Shown: positions 18,110-32,279 of the stretch, in pieces
How the letters are laid out: each line of letters begins with the position of its first letter
Position numbering within the stretch: the stretch's first letter is position 1
DNA from: a virus
DNA length: 35,018 nucleotides
Virus record (IMG/VR): IMGVR_UViG_3300014502_000541
Span: 1 to 35,018 of that record
Reading direction: 5' to 3' (one strand)
Notes under the pieces: model-generated
What the model saw: the letters and a program-made list of their open reading frames with translations, nothing else
The model's database searches: none
What the model was told of the DNA's origin: nothing
Made by a program: the position numbers and the translations under genes

Positions 18110-18946
18110 CTACCTCAGCACCAACTTTTTTCCGGAACCCTTTCCGGAATCAACTTGCACCGAGTTGTTGAAGGCGTTAATAAAATTTCTATACCCTTCT
18201 TGTGGCGAGCGCCCCATTGGTATCGACTCAATCGGTTCCCCATTCGGGTACTTGAACCTGCCGTCAACCCTGTGTCCCGCGTCAACCTCACTGCTCCCAC
18301 CTATGATGAGCGTCCTCCTCTTCCCGTCATAGTCGTAGTTCACCCAGATGTCTATTATCCCCTCTAAGGTGTCTCTCGCCTGGCCCGGCATGGACGATAC
18401 TACTTTGCTAAATGTCTCGGACGAACGCGTTTTGAATTCCTCGTCCTTTGAGTGCGAAATAAATATGGCACCCTTCCCAGAATGAAGGAGCTTCCGTATA
18501 ACCCCCGTGAACTCCTTCCTCACTGCATTCCACCCTTTACCGTACGTCTCGTCTGATGGATGGTCTATCGCCAACCTCTCGCACGTGAAAGTCATGCAGT
18601 ACTCGTAAGCGAAGTCTGCCGTGTCTATCACCACGAGTCGCGTCGCCTTGTCCTTGATGGCCAGGTCGATGTACCCCTCGAACTCTGCCCATGTCTGCAC
18701 GGCGACCTGTCGGATACTAAGGGCCTTACCACCTGGCTCACACATGAGGAACAACGCTCCCGGAAACTGCGCCGCAAGAGTAGTTTTCCCTATTTTCTTC
18801 TTACCATATAGCAAGATGGAATAGTCCTTTATGTCGTCCGACGGCACGGACTTTTCCTGGGGAAGAGACAGTTTAAACTCCTCGCTCCTCGCCTTCACAA
18901 CACCCACCCTTCCCTTCATGTTCCGTCTTAAAAGTTTTACAGCCAT
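18110..18946 (-). CDS. Sak4-like RecA-fold ATPase
   Basis: A 278-aa protein; ATG at 18946 is placed eight bases after AGGAGG (a GTG nine bases earlier is not needed). Walker A is YGKKKIGKTT (residues ~47-56) and Walker B LVVIDTAD (~104-111). LLHSGKGAIFISHSKDEEF is the sensor region. This is the pattern of Sak4-type annealing/recombination ATPases, which are typically encoded near ssDNA-binding proteins and nucleases, as here. It probably loads on ssDNA and acts with the neighbouring ssDNA-binding protein. Confidence 0.75.
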   Translation of the reverse strand: MAVKLLRRNMKGRVGVVKARSEEFKLSLPQEKSVPSDDIKDYSILLYGKKKIGKTTLAAQFPGALFLMCEPGGKALSIRQVAVQTWAEFEGYIDLAIKDKATRLVVIDTADFAYEYCMTFTCERLAIDHPSDETYGKGWNAVRKEFTGVIRKLLHSGKGAIFISHSKDEEFKTRSSETFSKVVSSMPGQARDTLEGIIDIWVNYDYDGKRRTLIIGGSSEVDAGHRVDGRFKYPNGEPIESIPMGRSPQEGYRNFINAFNNSVQVDSGKGSGKKLVLR

Positions 18947-24591: not shown

Positions 24592-24672
24592 GGTCTCCAC
24601 CGGCGCGGGATTCGAACCCGCAACCTCGGGGCATCCCCGCGCTCCACCTTTTGAGCTACCCGGTCGGAGACC
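24592..24672 (-). tRNA. tRNA-like element without a usable anticodon loop
   Basis: On the - strand a canonical T arm (GCGGG, TTCGAAT, CCCGC; 24605-24621) and D arm (TA, GCTC, AAAAGGTG, GAGC) are present. The anticodon arm is about four bases too short: CGGGG and CCCCG would close a three-base ATG loop. The acceptor is extended: ACCGG pairs with CCGGT, and beyond one bulged G, GGTCTCC pairs with GGAGACC, about 12 bp in all. So it is tRNA-like but not an ordinary tRNA gene. It lies in a 208-bp gap between leftward genes. Confidence 0.5.
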
Positions 24673-28154: not shown

Positions 28155-28235
28155 ACATCCCCCTTTTTTAGGTTGGCTCATCAGAACCGGCTGCCCACTT
28201 CCCCGGTTGATGGATTGTCTCATTCACTTCCTTCT

Positions 28236-28250
28236 ATATAGGTAAGGGAC
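28236..28250 (-). promoter_or_regulatory. Promoter-like element (CCTTACCTATATAG)
   Basis: The - strand repeats the TTACCTATATA element seen before other early genes, here with TATAGA as possible -10. No clear -35 is visible. It lies upstream of the 55-aa gene. Confidence 0.4.
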
Positions 28251-28299
28251 TGAGACAAACCATTTCGCCTTTTCGTCCGGACTTTTCACCCGCCAGCTA

Positions 28300-28380
28300 T
28301 CACGCTGCCGTTGCCTTGGGTACTTCGTCCTGCATGCACCGTGCCCGTTCAAACGTTTGCGACCACGATGACTCGGCCAT
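28300..28380 (-). CDS. Candidate 26-aa micro-ORF
   Basis: ATG at 28380 with GGAAAAGA before it; the peptide is MAESSWSQTFERARCMQDEV plus six residues. It starts directly after a pair of motif copies that form an inverted repeat. Too short to support from the sequence alone. Confidence 0.22.
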   Translation of the reverse strand: MAESSWSQTFERARCMQDEVPKATAA

Positions 28381-28382
28381 TC

Positions 28383-28409
28383 TTTTCCAGGATTTCCTGG
28401 AAGAGAGAC
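28383..28409. repeat. Inverted pair of the CCAGGAAA motif
   Basis: TTTTCCAGG (28384-28392) and CCTGGAAGAGAGAC (28396-28409) face each other around ATTT, so two opposite half-sites of the recurring motif form an 11-bp near-palindrome. This is the most operator-like copy in the window. It lies between two micro-ORFs. Confidence 0.5.
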
Positions 28410-28532
28410 CTAAGGGTTTTCAATGGGACCCTTTTTTTTCTTGTCAACCCACAAATTTTTCGGTCTGCTTACGCGCTGGTTTCGTCTCGGGACTTTGCGG
28501 CCGTTTTGTTCGGCCTTCCTTGTCCGGGTCAT
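28410..28532 (-). CDS. Candidate 40-aa basic protein
   Basis: ATG at 28532 directly follows the TAG of the frame upstream; the product is basic (MTRTRKAEQNGRKVPRRNQR, then KNLWVDKKKKGPIENP) and could bind RNA or DNA. SD is weak. On the + strand its last codons include a hairpin plus T8 (28412-28439). Confidence 0.35.
   Translation of the reverse strand: MTRTRKAEQNGRKVPRRNQRVSRPKNLWVDKKKKGPIENP
28412..28439 (+). terminator. Intrinsic terminator on the + strand
   Basis: AAGGGT (28412-28417) and ACCCTT (28428-28433) pair around ten bases and are followed by TTTTTT. It faces against the leftward genes and would stop rightward (antisense) transcription. Confidence 0.4.
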
Positions 28533-28739
28533 CTATTCCCGCGCTTTTCGCTTCGCCGTTTTATTTTTCAAGGAGCTTTCTTCCTTCCCTCTATATATAT
28601 TATAGCATATATTCCCGCGTTCGGGAGCCCCCCCCGGAGCGAAAATATCCCAATGCAGGCATGGCCTTTTAAAATATTTTGCTATAATCCCCGCAATTCT
28701 TCCCGAAAAGGCCCTTATTGTATATATATAATCGCGCAT
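28533..28739 (-). CDS. Candidate 68-aa protein
   Basis: A frame from the ATG at 28739 to a TAG that touches the next ATG (TAGATG). The product (MRDYIYTIRAFSGRIAGIIA ... KNKTAKRKARE) ends very basic. It has no convincing SD and contains the extended -10 promoter at 28599, and the DNA has a run of eight C. It may be non-coding leader. Confidence 0.28.
   Translation of the reverse strand: MRDYIYTIRAFSGRIAGIIAKYFKRPCLHWDIFAPGGAPERGNICYNIYRGKEESSLKNKTAKRKARE
28599..28607 (-). promoter_or_regulatory. Extended -10 promoter
   Basis: On the - strand TGCTATAAT gives a perfect extended -10 (TGn-TATAAT), which can work without a -35. It would drive the 40-aa candidate and the early genes to its left. 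Confidence 0.5.
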
Positions 28740-28763
28740 ACCTATATTATGCTTTCTGGCCCG

Positions 28764-28780
28764 TTTCCTGGAAAAGAGAC
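28764..28780 (-). repeat. Copy of the TTTCCTGGAAAAGAGAC motif
   Basis: The + strand reads TTTCCTGGAAAAGAGAC, the fullest copy of the recurring element. It lies at the end of the 47-aa membrane gene and 25-40 bases upstream of the 28739 frame. Confidence 0.5.
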
Positions 28781-28923
28781 TACCTCATTCCCATCAGCAC
28801 GCCCGCGTTGAGCAGCGCACCCCCGAGGAAGTACACGACCATCGGCCACCTCTTGTCAACGGCCGCTATCCCGGCCAGCAACACCATCGCGACTATGAAC
28901 AGCATGAAGCATGGTTTAGTCAT
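28780..28923 (-). CDS. 47-aa two-span membrane protein
   Basis: ATG at 28923 follows GGGGAGGATAGGCGT. Two hydrophobic helices (FMLFIVAMVLLAGIAAV and MVVYFLGGALLNAGVLMG) are separated by DKRWP. It is the second gene of the leftward operon, only four bases from the previous stop. Small early membrane proteins of phages often interfere with host or superinfecting phage, but no evidence for that exists here. Confidence 0.55.
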   Translation of the reverse strand: MTKPCFMLFIVAMVLLAGIAAVDKRWPMVVYFLGGALLNAGVLMGMR

Positions 28924-28927
28924 ACGC

Positions 28928-29365
28928 CTATCCTCCCCTTTTCAGCACAAACCTGGTTTTCCTGGAAGAAGACAGTCTTTCCGCCTTCCTCCTCCTGTAG
29001 TACGCCCTCGCGTATTCTGGGTGGTTCCATTTCCACAACTGCGACGCCTCATTCGCCTCCTTCCTGTGCGCCTTCCTCCACCTCCCCGCGCGCTCGTTCT
29101 TCCTCAGCCTCCTCAGCTCCGCCCTGACGGCCATCGCCCTGCCGTTTCTGGCCGCCGAGTCGACCATCCTGTCCTCCCGATACTCTTTCATTATCTCCTC
29201 GTAGCGCGCGACCACGTCTCTCAGGCTTTTTGCGGCCTTGGTTTCTCTAACGCCCTGCGGCGCCCCCGCCGCCACCCTTACGCCGGCCTCGGCCAGTTTC
29301 CTCCTCCTGTTCGCGTCAAAATCAAACCTGTCCATGTCCAGCTTCAATCTCTGAAAGACATCCAT
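28928..29365 (-). CDS. Arg-rich early protein
   Basis: A 145-aa protein with a strong SD (AAAAGGAGGTGGGATT). It is very rich in Arg, Lys and Ala (RRRKLAEAGVRVAAG, AELRRLRKNERAGRWRKAHR, YARAYYRRRKAERLSSSRK) and mostly helical, with a HPEYARAYYRRRKA motif common in HNH-like or DNA-binding phage proteins. No HNH residues are seen. It is the first gene of the leftward operon, ~105 bases after the promoter inside the large inverted repeat, so it may be an early DNA-binding regulator. Confidence 0.6.
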   Translation of the reverse strand: MDVFQRLKLDMDRFDFDANRRRKLAEAGVRVAAGAPQGVRETKAAKSLRDVVARYEEIMKEYREDRMVDSAARNGRAMAVRAELRRLRKNERAGRWRKAHRKEANEASQLWKWNHPEYARAYYRRRKAERLSSSRKTRFVLKRGG

Positions 29366-29438
29366 AATCCCACCTCCTTTTTATACAAAACCTATCAATA
29401 CACTGCCGCGCAAAACATGCCATTTTTGGCCGTTAGAC

Positions 29439-29534
29439 AGTGGCTCTATGAGCATATTACAGCCATAATATTTTAGCGCAAATTCGCAAAAAGTAAACAT
29501 TTTTTTATGGCTGTAATACTATGACAGAGCCACT
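29439..29534. repeat. Inverted repeat flanking the early leftward promoter
   Basis: The 30-bp arms at 29439-29468 and 29505-29534 share AGTGGCTCT (9 bp) and ATTACAGCCATAA (13 bp) in opposite orientation, with eight diverged bases between. The 36-bp spacer holds the promoter of the leftward operon. The layout is that of a paired operator for a dimeric regulator, or of a DNA loop or hairpin. Confidence 0.75.
29470..29497 (-). promoter_or_regulatory. Early leftward promoter inside the inverted repeat
   Basis: On the - strand TTTACT (29492-29497), a 16-bp spacer and TAAAAT (29470-29475). The start site would lie about ten bases further left, inside the left repeat arm, ~95 bases before the first early gene. 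Confidence 0.5.
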
Positions 29535-29628
29535 AACTAAGCGTTTAAAAAAACCCCTAATTTAAACCTATCTGATTCAAAAAAAGCATTGCTGGCATAG
29601 GATATATCAATGTTTCCAACGGCCGAAA

Positions 29629-29799
29629 CGATTGTTTCGAAATTCGCGCCCCTATATATATGAATGCCTTTTTTTTAATACAATGATAATAACTAATTTA
29701 TATTTTATTTTTTAATTAAAAATAAACATAAAAAGAGATAAAAAGACAAAAAGACAAAGGCAAGACATATATATAGGGGCGCATTTCGCGAAACAATCG
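29629..29799. repeat. 34-bp inverted repeat around an A/T-rich core (origin candidate)
   Basis: Arms at 29629-29662 and 29766-29799 share CGATTGTTTCG (11 bp) and CGCCCCTATATATATG (16 bp) in opposite orientation; only seven bases between these blocks differ. The 103-bp interval (TTTTTTTTAATACAATGATA, then TTTATATTTTATTTTTTAAT) is extremely A/T-rich. The left arm begins inside a perfect palindrome, CGAAAC-GATT-GTTTCG. This is the arrangement expected of a replication origin with duplex-unwinding core or of a divergent control element. A weak membrane-protein frame overlaps it. Confidence 0.75.
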
Positions 29800-29932
29800 C
29801 GGAATATCCGGGAATCAAGGCCGCTGTCACGGCAAGAGGCCAAAGCAGTATCATCTCCAGGATAGGCCAGAATTTTGCCTTCTTTCGCGTCTCCTTTTCC
29901 TTCCTTTGCGCGCGGAATCCGCAAAAAAGCAA
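29705..29932 (-). CDS. Candidate small membrane protein across the origin region
   Basis: A frame of 75 codons from a TTG, with no ATG until codon 27. Two hydrophobic segments (ILEMILLWPLAVTAALIPGY and LYICLAFVFLSFYLFLCLFL) follow a basic stretch (KEKETRKKAKFW). An AAAAGGAG lies inside, not before the start. The A/T-rich DNA would code for Phe/Leu/Ile by chance, so the gene is doubtful. Confidence 0.3.
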   Translation of the reverse strand: MLFCGFRAQRKEKETRKKAKFWPILEMILLWPLAVTAALIPGYSAIVSRNAPLYICLAFVFLSFYLFLCLFLIKK

Positions 29933-30179
29933 TCCGCCGGATGCCTCAGTGGTCGACGTAGAAACGGGCCGTGCGCGCGAATCGGGAATATGTAAAAATT
30001 AGGGGAACTAGTCGCCATTTTTTAAATATAGATTTTGTTTTCAGATTTTATCAATATGCGTGAAGAAGATATTCGGGAATTTCAAAAGGCCGTTGCATTA
30101 TCTTTTCCAGGAATTGGAATTTGTTTTTCAAGCGGAAAAATGCGGGGAATCTTGGCGTGAAAAATAGTTAAAATAAACG
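29933..30179 (+). other. Non-coding part of the control region
   Basis: No convincing gene; a 34-codon frame at 30056-30160 has no SD. Four loosely related CGGGAAT elements in the same direction (29809-29815, 29982-29988, 30074-30080, 30143-30149 as CGGGGAAT) could be weak iterons. A TTTTCCAGGAATT copy of the recurring motif is at 30104. Confidence 0.35.
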
Positions 30180-30208
30180 TTCGAAGATTTTTAATTTGCT
30201 ACTATAAT
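30180..30208 (+). promoter_or_regulatory. Rightward (late) promoter before the terminase genes
   Basis: A perfect TATAAT (30203-30208) with 17-bp spacing to TTCGAA (30180-30185), a weak -35. A TTACCTATATAAA element follows at 30235-30247. The weak -35 suggests activation by a phage or host factor. Confidence 0.5.
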
Positions 30209-30259
30209 GAAAATATAAGATATATAAGACTTATTTACCTATATAAATGCTGCAAGGAG

Positions 30260-30958
30260 ATGAGAGTGAAATCAGACCCGAAGAAAAAATCAAAAACGAT
30301 ATATCTTAAAAGACCCCCGAAACCGCCACACCCAATTCGAACCGATGTAGACCCAAAACCGATACCGATTTCCCAACAAACAATTGATGAAGTTAAAAAA
30401 GCTATGGATGGTTCTTCCATAAAGCATTTTAATTTTTGCCTTGAATATGTGAAAGACTTTAACGGGACACAGGCGGCTTTGAGGGCAAAATTAAGTGATA
30501 AACCAGATATTGCGCGGGACATGGCCAAGGAGTTTTTGCAGGATTCCTGCATTACACGGGAAGTCAGGCGGATGGTTTACGAGCGCGTCGAGCGTTCCAA
30601 GATAACGGCCGACTCCATTCTGGCCGAAATGTATGCGCTGGCCAAGGCGGACCCCGACGAGCTCCTCGACGGGGACGGGTGCCTCAGGCCGATGAAGGAA
30701 ATTCCCGAGTCCCTCCGCCGTTGCATATCCAGTGTGGAGGTGCAGGAGTTGTGGGAAGGGACGGGGAAGAACAGGGTGCGCGTGGGTACGCTGAAGCGGG
30801 TCAGGATGTGGGATAAGGGTCGGTCGCTCGAGGGGCTGGCGAAGCACCTGGACCTGATAAAGGATATGTTGCCGCCCGGCGGGAGCGGGGAAAATGCCGC
30901 GCCGGTAGTCCAATTCCTTCCGGTCGAGCCGGAGGAGGAGGGCGCGGATGGTCATTGA
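30260..30958 (+). CDS. terS: Terminase small subunit
   Basis: A 232-aa protein. The ATG at 30260 touches AAGGAG; a GTG six bases on (30266) has ideal spacing and may be the true start. After a Pro/Lys-rich opening, residues ~50-130 fit the Terminase_2-type small subunit (FCLEYVKDFNGTQAALRAKL, MAKEFLQDSCITREVRRMVY, RSKITADSILAEMYALAKAD), which recognises the packaging site and assembles as a ring. The C-terminal part (GLAKHLDLIKDMLPPGGSGE) is the usual end. The large subunit overlaps it by 11 bases. Confidence 0.82.
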   Translation: MRVKSDPKKKSKTIYLKRPPKPPHPIRTDVDPKPIPISQQTIDEVKKAMDGSSIKHFNFCLEYVKDFNGTQAALRAKLSDKPDIARDMAKEFLQDSCITREVRRMVYERVERSKITADSILAEMYALAKADPDELLDGDGCLRPMKEIPESLRRCISSVEVQELWEGTGKNRVRVGTLKRVRMWDKGRSLEGLAKHLDLIKDMLPPGGSGENAAPVVQFLPVEPEEEGADGH

Positions 30959-32279
30959 GTACCCTGCGAGGGCGAGGGACGTGCTGAGCTCAAGGGCCAG
31001 GTACAAGGTGCTGAGGGGAGGGCGCGGCTCGGCCAAGAGCTGGACATTCGCGCGCTATACGCTCGGCCGCACGGCTTATGCCAGGAAGAGGGTGCTCTGC
31101 GTAAGGGAGATACAGAACTCCATAGCTGACTCGGTGCACAGGCTGTTGAGGGACCAGATAGAGAGGAGACCGCCGCACGGGCTGGGTTTGGGAAACCTGT
31201 TCAAGATAACTGACAACTCGATAAAGGGCAGGTACGGGTCGGAGTTCATGTTCAAGGGGCTCAGGACCAACGTCGACCAGATAAAGTCGATGGAGGGGAT
31301 AGATATATGCTGGGGCTCAGAGATGCAGACGGCCAGCAAGCACTCGATAGGGATACTTACCCCGACGATAAGGAATAAGGATTCGGAGATACTCTTTGAT
31401 TACAATCCGGAGAACGAGGACGACGCGGTGCACCAACTGTATACATTGAATCAGCCGTCCGACTGCGTGAATCAGGAAATGAATTTTTATGACAACCCGT
31501 GGTTCCCGGACGTGCTGCGCAGGGAAATGGAGCATTGCAAGAAGACGGACTTCGAACAGTACGAGTGGGTGTGGCTGGGCAAGCTGAAGAAGTACGCGCA
31601 TGCGTTGATATTCAGGGGCAAGTACAGGGTCGAGGCGTTCGAGACGCCCGCGGACGCAATACTCAGGTTCGGGGCGGATTGGGGGTTCAGCGGCAATCCG
31701 ACGTGTCTGGTGAGGATGTTCGTGGTCGGGAATACGTTGTACATTGACAGGGAGTTCTACGACTTCCATGTCGAGCTCAACGACCTGCCTTTCAGGTTTG
31801 ACGAGGTGCCGAGGAGCAGGCGCCACCTGATATACGGTGACTGCTCGCGGCCGGAGACGATAAGCCTGATGCAGTCGGCCGGGTTCGTGATAGAGGGCGC
31901 GAAGAAGTGGGCGGGGAGTGTCGAGGACGGGATATCGTTTCTGCGCTCATTCGACGCGATAGTGATACACCCCAGGTGCAAGGGTGTCAGGCACGACTTC
32001 GAGAACTACAGGTACAAGGTGGACCCGCGGACGAAAAAGCCGATGTCCACGCCGGAGAAGAGGAACGACCACGCGCCGGACGCGGTGAGGTATGGGTTGC
32101 ATGAACTTATTTATACTCCAGAGGTGCAGGCCGAGGAGACAGTCACGGAGAGGGACGTCGGCATCAGGAGGGTCAAGATAGGACAGGACGACGGCAGGCA
32201 GGCATCGCCGGCCGAGGACAGGGAAGAATCGCAGGAAGCGGACGTGGGCGAAGAGGGCGTGAAAATAGGAGACTATTGA
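30948..32279 (+). CDS. terL: Terminase large subunit
   Basis: A 443-aa protein with SD GGAGGAGGAGGGCGCG. The packaging ATPase has Walker A GGRGSAKS at 24-31; GIDICWGSEMQTAS near 125 is the Walker B region, with Gly-Ser-Glu where most relatives have a Glu-Glu pair. The RNase H-type nuclease has Asp in RFGADWGFSGNP (~240), YGDCSRPETI (~297) and RNDHAPDAVRYGLHE (~375). It belongs to the PBSX/Terminase_3 type. It cuts concatemers and pumps DNA into the prohead. The last ~45 residues are acidic and variable. Confidence 0.92.
   Translation: MVIEYPARARDVLSSRARYKVLRGGRGSAKSWTFARYTLGRTAYARKRVLCVREIQNSIADSVHRLLRDQIERRPPHGLGLGNLFKITDNSIKGRYGSEFMFKGLRTNVDQIKSMEGIDICWGSEMQTASKHSIGILTPTIRNKDSEILFDYNPENEDDAVHQLYTLNQPSDCVNQEMNFYDNPWFPDVLRREMEHCKKTDFEQYEWVWLGKLKKYAHALIFRGKYRVEAFETPADAILRFGADWGFSGNPTCLVRMFVVGNTLYIDREFYDFHVELNDLPFRFDEVPRSRRHLIYGDCSRPETISLMQSAGFVIEGAKKWAGSVEDGISFLRSFDAIVIHPRCKGVRHDFENYRYKVDPRTKKPMSTPEKRNDHAPDAVRYGLHELIYTPEVQAEETVTERDVGIRRVKIGQDDGRQASPAEDREESQEADVGEEGVKIGDY

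Follow-up and report, generated by a model that had tools for sequence, protein, structure and literature searches.

We identified a long inverted repeat around an A/T-rich core in an uncultivated, tailed siphovirus, and we judge with a probability of roughly 0.5 that this 171-bp element is a twin promoter/operator region that switches early and late transcription of the virus. The window referred to below is the whole stretch of DNA that was analysed, an IMG/VR record of 35,018 bases. The element lies in a non-coding gap that heads two divergent transcription units, the leftward replication genes and the rightward terS-terL-portal genes, and our gene calls uphold its placement between them, as proposed in a first-pass annotation of the sequence. 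It most likely belongs to an ordinary kind of phage part, with like, sequence-different devices in most relatives. The element and its surroundings comprise the following features.

28928-29365, minus strand: first clear leftward gene, 145 aa, with no family match
29433-29468 and 29505-29540, minus strand: 36-nt arms of a second inverted repeat / RNA hairpin
29624-29639: dyad CGAAAC-GATT-GTTTCG, overlapping the left arm; a candidate operator, as read from the sequence
29629-29662, minus strand: left (early-side) arm, outward reading CATATATATAGGGGCGCGAATTTCGAAACAATCG
29663-29765: A/T-rich core, 103 nt, 83% A/T, with tandem AAAAAGAC units in its right part
29754-29785, plus strand: terS-side block ACAAAGGCAAGACATATATATAGGGGCGCATT, a candidate outward promoter
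29766-29799, plus strand: right (terS-side) arm, outward reading CATATATATAGGGGCGCATTTCGCGAAACAATCG
30260-30958, plus strand: terS, small terminase subunit (Terminase_2, phrog_51), first clear rightward gene
30948-32279, plus strand: terL, large terminase subunit (Terminase_3)

The leftward genes include those for a PolA-type DNA polymerase, a primase, a Sak4-like ATPase, an ERCC4 nuclease, a dUTPase and a dCMP deaminase. TerS, TerL and portal come first among the rightward genes, and the neck and tail genes lie at the opposite end of the record. No capsid gene was recognised between the portal and neck genes in the window, so the record is probably incomplete. A glycosyltransferase-like gene (120-1046) adjoins the neck genes, and an Rfam tRNA match of 39.3 bits at 24597-24665 (minus strand), absent from the ARAGORN output, is possibly a degenerate tRNA. 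The nearest gene starts are 264 nt beyond the left arm and 461 nt (terS) beyond the right arm, leaving long leaders. The second inverted repeat is independent of the main element. It is located in the leader that precedes the first leftward gene, approximately 90 nt left of the main element, and has an RNA fold z-score of -7.4 on the leftward strand; a search of it against plasmids returned nothing meaningful.

The inverted repeat around the A/T-rich core is real and non-random. Its arms are complementary at 29 of 34 positions (85%) across 103 nt, and recomputation returned the arm coordinates, the 34-nt length and the spacing originally given. Matching beyond chance had also been claimed, and this stands: the best inverted repeat of the same type reached 25/34 in ten Markov shuffles of the whole window and 26/34 in 200 dinucleotide shuffles of the local gap (29366-30259). 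Some details required correction. The first matching block is 11 bp as described; however, the second is 17 bp rather than 16, and one extra match lies between them. The core had been called almost pure A/T, which overstates the measured 83%. The dyad, described as a perfect palindrome, does have two perfect 6-bp half-sites, but its 4-nt spacer is not palindromic. In single-strand folding with DNA parameters the arms pair, and the element has a z-score of -9.9 relative to dinucleotide shuffles. The predicted fold also pairs TGCCTTT (29665-29671) with AAAGGCA (29756-29762), so that the symmetry reaches a little farther into the core. In both arms we see a TATA-like box, then GGGG, and farther outward a GTTTCG/CGAAAC half-site block.

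As a control region, the element would be common to the early unit of replication genes, transcribed leftward, and the late terminase-portal-structural unit, transcribed rightward. Each arm would combine an outward promoter and an operator. A regulator in dimeric or oligomeric form may bind both arms, forming a protein bridge. Such a regulator could also bend the A/T-rich core and so bring both units under joint control. A shared regulator requires sites at the heads of both the early and the late units of a genome; because the two heads coincide in the window, a single symmetric region would suffice for both.

The window contains six occurrences of the motif TATATATA, whereas 0.16 would be expected; they fall at five non-coding places, and the two arms are among these. 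This excess and the TATA-like boxes are consistent with promoters, although they do not prove them. No sigma-70 promoter match was found in the arms. The TATATATA boxes are not sigma-70 -10 hexamers, as A2 and T6 are present in no register. The argument for promoters is therefore one from composition and place. An archaeal host is suggested by the TATA boxes and by the best named portal match, Methanoculleus virus Blf4. Set against these are the PolA-type polymerase, the TGNTATAAT sites (four in the window versus 0.66 expected) and a portal relative, 57%, in a contig of an Omnitrophota MAG.

The best relatives share the replication module with the window at roughly 24–68% protein identity. Close relatives by sequence were not found, and searches with the first early protein and with the primase (single-sequence query) yielded none. 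One of the best relatives, G010, has 48,305 bases, is terminally redundant as assembled, and shows the same divergent gene order, with protein identities to the window of 34% for TerS, 41% for TerL and 55% for PolA. Its homologous divergent gap contains an inverted repeat (L127 4286-4407), GCGCGGAT-N7-CCCCTCTATA, facing an A/T-rich core; this repeat was equalled in 2 of 200 shuffles with 24-nt arms and 5 of 200 with 34-nt arms. The terS-side 32 nt of the window align without gaps to G010 at 24 of 32 positions in the same orientation to terS, and only 1 in 500 shuffles aligned as well. On the early side no significant alignment between the two was obtained, and the G010 gene neighbouring the repeat there encodes an HTH_3 protein. 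A second relative, G009, is nearer to the window by its early genes and, judged from its ORFs, has the same divergent order. It has no convincing inverted repeat, the best one being equalled in 12–15 of 200 shuffles. Absence of the arms where the genes are conserved had been proposed as evidence against an origin or master switch here; this is what we find in G009, but not in G010.

More distant relatives have co-directional genes. Significant long-armed inverted repeats are present in five of these (G011, G012, G013, G014 and G016) within their few long non-coding gaps, at the heads of transcription units. In G012 the repeat lies upstream of the terminase operon, and in G016 the motif GACGGTARATCGA is found near both junctions, the early and late heads. 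The arms of the G011 repeat (L132 5193-5316) have long C and G runs and enclose an A/T-rich core. G013 has like arms at both the late-to-early and the early-to-late junction, and its two inverted-repeat elements flank the early module.

L101 4686-4831, equal to G013 18113-18258: first inverted-repeat element
L137 3143-3321, equal to G013 36642-36820: second inverted-repeat element

Apart from the terS side of G010, arm sequences are dissimilar between genomes, so that common descent of the repeats as one device is conjectural. Inverted repeats of comparable strength also occur at other sites in some relatives that share only the terminase, and such repeats are thus not rare in phages. A contig of one terminase relative carries a perfect 30/30 inverted repeat (L082 2621-2867), which is possibly an effect of assembly.

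The terS-side block kept in G010 and the long-armed repeats at unit heads in five further relatives favour a control region. Several observations count against it: the full 32-nt arm module is unique in the window, no HTH repressor was recognised there, and the leaders are long. In addition, co-directional relatives need no symmetric element for divergent promotion, and G009, despite its nearer early genes, has no convincing inverted repeat.

A replication origin is a possible but less likely reading. An initiator would bind the inverted arms and melt the core, which would serve as a DNA unwinding element. The A/T-rich core with its tandem AAAAAGAC units and symmetric sites on either side would suit this role, and like elements occur in relatives with the PolA/primase/Sak4 module. 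Moreover, G012, G013 and G014 keep a common core (an A-tract and a GGTTAA-like motif) while their arms differ. In G013 a 29-nt core stretch is identical at both junctions and points in opposite ways, although the genes do not, which would not be the case for a promoter; an origin or an architectural site would better account for this opposite orientation and for the conserved A-tract. However, we did not find this core motif in the window or in G010, and no replication initiator gene was recognised in the window. Bacteriophage SPP1 has two origins, each composed of direct repeats and an A/T-rich unwinding element rather than long inverted arms (PMC6316719). The only direct repeats in the element studied here are the short AAAAAGAC units, and its main sites are inverted.

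A switch in GC skew is supportive, but not strictly defining, of a phage origin. The first-pass annotation had looked to a skew minimum at the element, and the cumulative minimum of the window does fall near 30 kb. However, skew and gene direction coincide in the window, and four relatives with co-directional genes (G011, G012, G013 and G016) have essentially one skew sign from end to end, with no reversal. Skew thus follows transcription in this lineage, and the minimum near 30 kb is not evidence for an origin; the element shows no strand-bias switch that transcription leaves unexplained. More generally, a GC-skew minimum at divergent phage units is not necessarily the sign of an origin. The annotation had left the choice between origin and master switch open. 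The origin has lost its skew test, whereas the switch is better supported by its place, the terS-side block of G010, the repeats at the unit heads of relatives and the double occurrence in G013.

Known phage regions offer partial parallels. In SPP1, pac shares sequence with the late promoters and with the beginning of gene 1, the TerS sites pacL and pacR lie on either side of the cut, and the DNA of pacL is bent (PMC6316719, PMC4856287); A/T islands mark both regulation and origins (PMC6316719). The SPP1 region upstream of gene 1 (PL1/PL2 overlapping pac) and oriL/oriR are likewise non-coding, A/T-rich and upstream of a terS-terL pair, and one stretch can be both promoter and pac (PMC6316719). 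In contrast to the window, the genes of SPP1 run co-directionally, pacL differs from pacR in sequence, the origins have direct repeats, and no two long inverted arms are described. Cluster O mycobacteriophages such as Corndog also have an A/T-rich stretch with flanking repeats in the gap between divergent operons, with divergent promoters, and the authors leave regulation versus origin open (PMC4351075). This element differs in its 39-nt core, its near base-for-base conservation in five phages and its SigA promoters, and no sequence similarity to the window is shown. Intergenic A/T-box repeats are similarly found in halovirus HF2, where they are proven promoters and include a bidirectional region (PMC8707807). 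However, HF2 is an archaeal virus whose repeats are direct, 58 and 29 bp long, and whose boxes are spaced by 15 bp; it has no single long inverted pair. The window element belongs to the same general kind as the Cluster O and HF2 regions. In view of the promoter/pac overlap and the dual use of A/T islands in SPP1, and of the core evidence from G013, we place the control region at about one half, keep the origin as a possibility and regard a pac site as unlikely.

At a pac site, rings of the small terminase subunit would bind both arms and the large subunit would cut between or near them. The element is upstream of terS, as is the pac of SPP1, and the half conserved in G010 is the terS-side half. 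However, comparable elements are found in relatives at the late-to-early junction, a long way from terS, G013 has two, and the element ends 461 nt before terS. Furthermore, pacL and pacR of SPP1 lack sequence identity (PMC4856287), whereas the arms here are 85% alike.

It seems very unlikely that the element acts as an RNA-level hairpin, whether a terminator, an attenuator or a processing site, instead of as a DNA signal. The strong single-strand fold noted above, calculated with DNA parameters, and the adjacent second hairpin (29433-29540) would agree with it, but the loop is approximately 100 nt, no T-run follows the stem, the element was not flagged as terminator-like, and it lies upstream of both units. 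A miniature transposable element with terminal inverted repeats would account for the 171-bp size, the long terminal repeats and the A/T-rich interior, but we rejected this highly improbable candidate on its single copy in the window, the lack of a target-site duplication in the flanks and its kept position in G010. A blastn search of the element against named phages gave no match. An exact search of viral contigs with the 17-nt inner arm gave one, in L083, which we judge to be chance because it falls inside an unrelated ORF.

A broader, speculative and rather doubtful proposal is that long inverted arms with an A/T-rich core at unit heads constitute a lineage-wide device of PolA/primase/Sak4 phages, of which the element would be the version in the window. 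Its arms would be remade in each genome, whereas the symmetry and the place would be kept, as would the core in one subgroup. Such a device would combine replication initiation with a transcription switch and might be paired around the early module in some members. If the control region is confirmed, the search for the regulator of early and late genes in an uncultivated siphovirus group would have a defined target of 171 bp. The element would also exemplify a symmetric cis-element that recurs across relatives and whose arms have no common sequence, so that control regions could be sought by symmetry where sequence similarity fails.

Two further sets of motifs were observed in the window. Approximately 700 nt without a clear gene (28224-28927) contain three TATATATA matches, two of which overlap, and one TGCTATAAT site per strand; this stretch is possibly a non-coding RNA or a promoter cluster. 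The repeated motif TTTCCTGGAAAAGAGAC is present at 28764 and 28393, with weaker copies at 18853, 27253, 30098 (minus strand) and 34106 (minus strand). For TTTCCAGGAAA with at most one mismatch there are nine matches versus 1.15 expected, one palindromic site being counted on both strands. In leftward non-coding stretches, some TTTCCTGGAAAAGAGAC copies are positioned upstream of TATA-like boxes, and the motif is possibly a regulator site.
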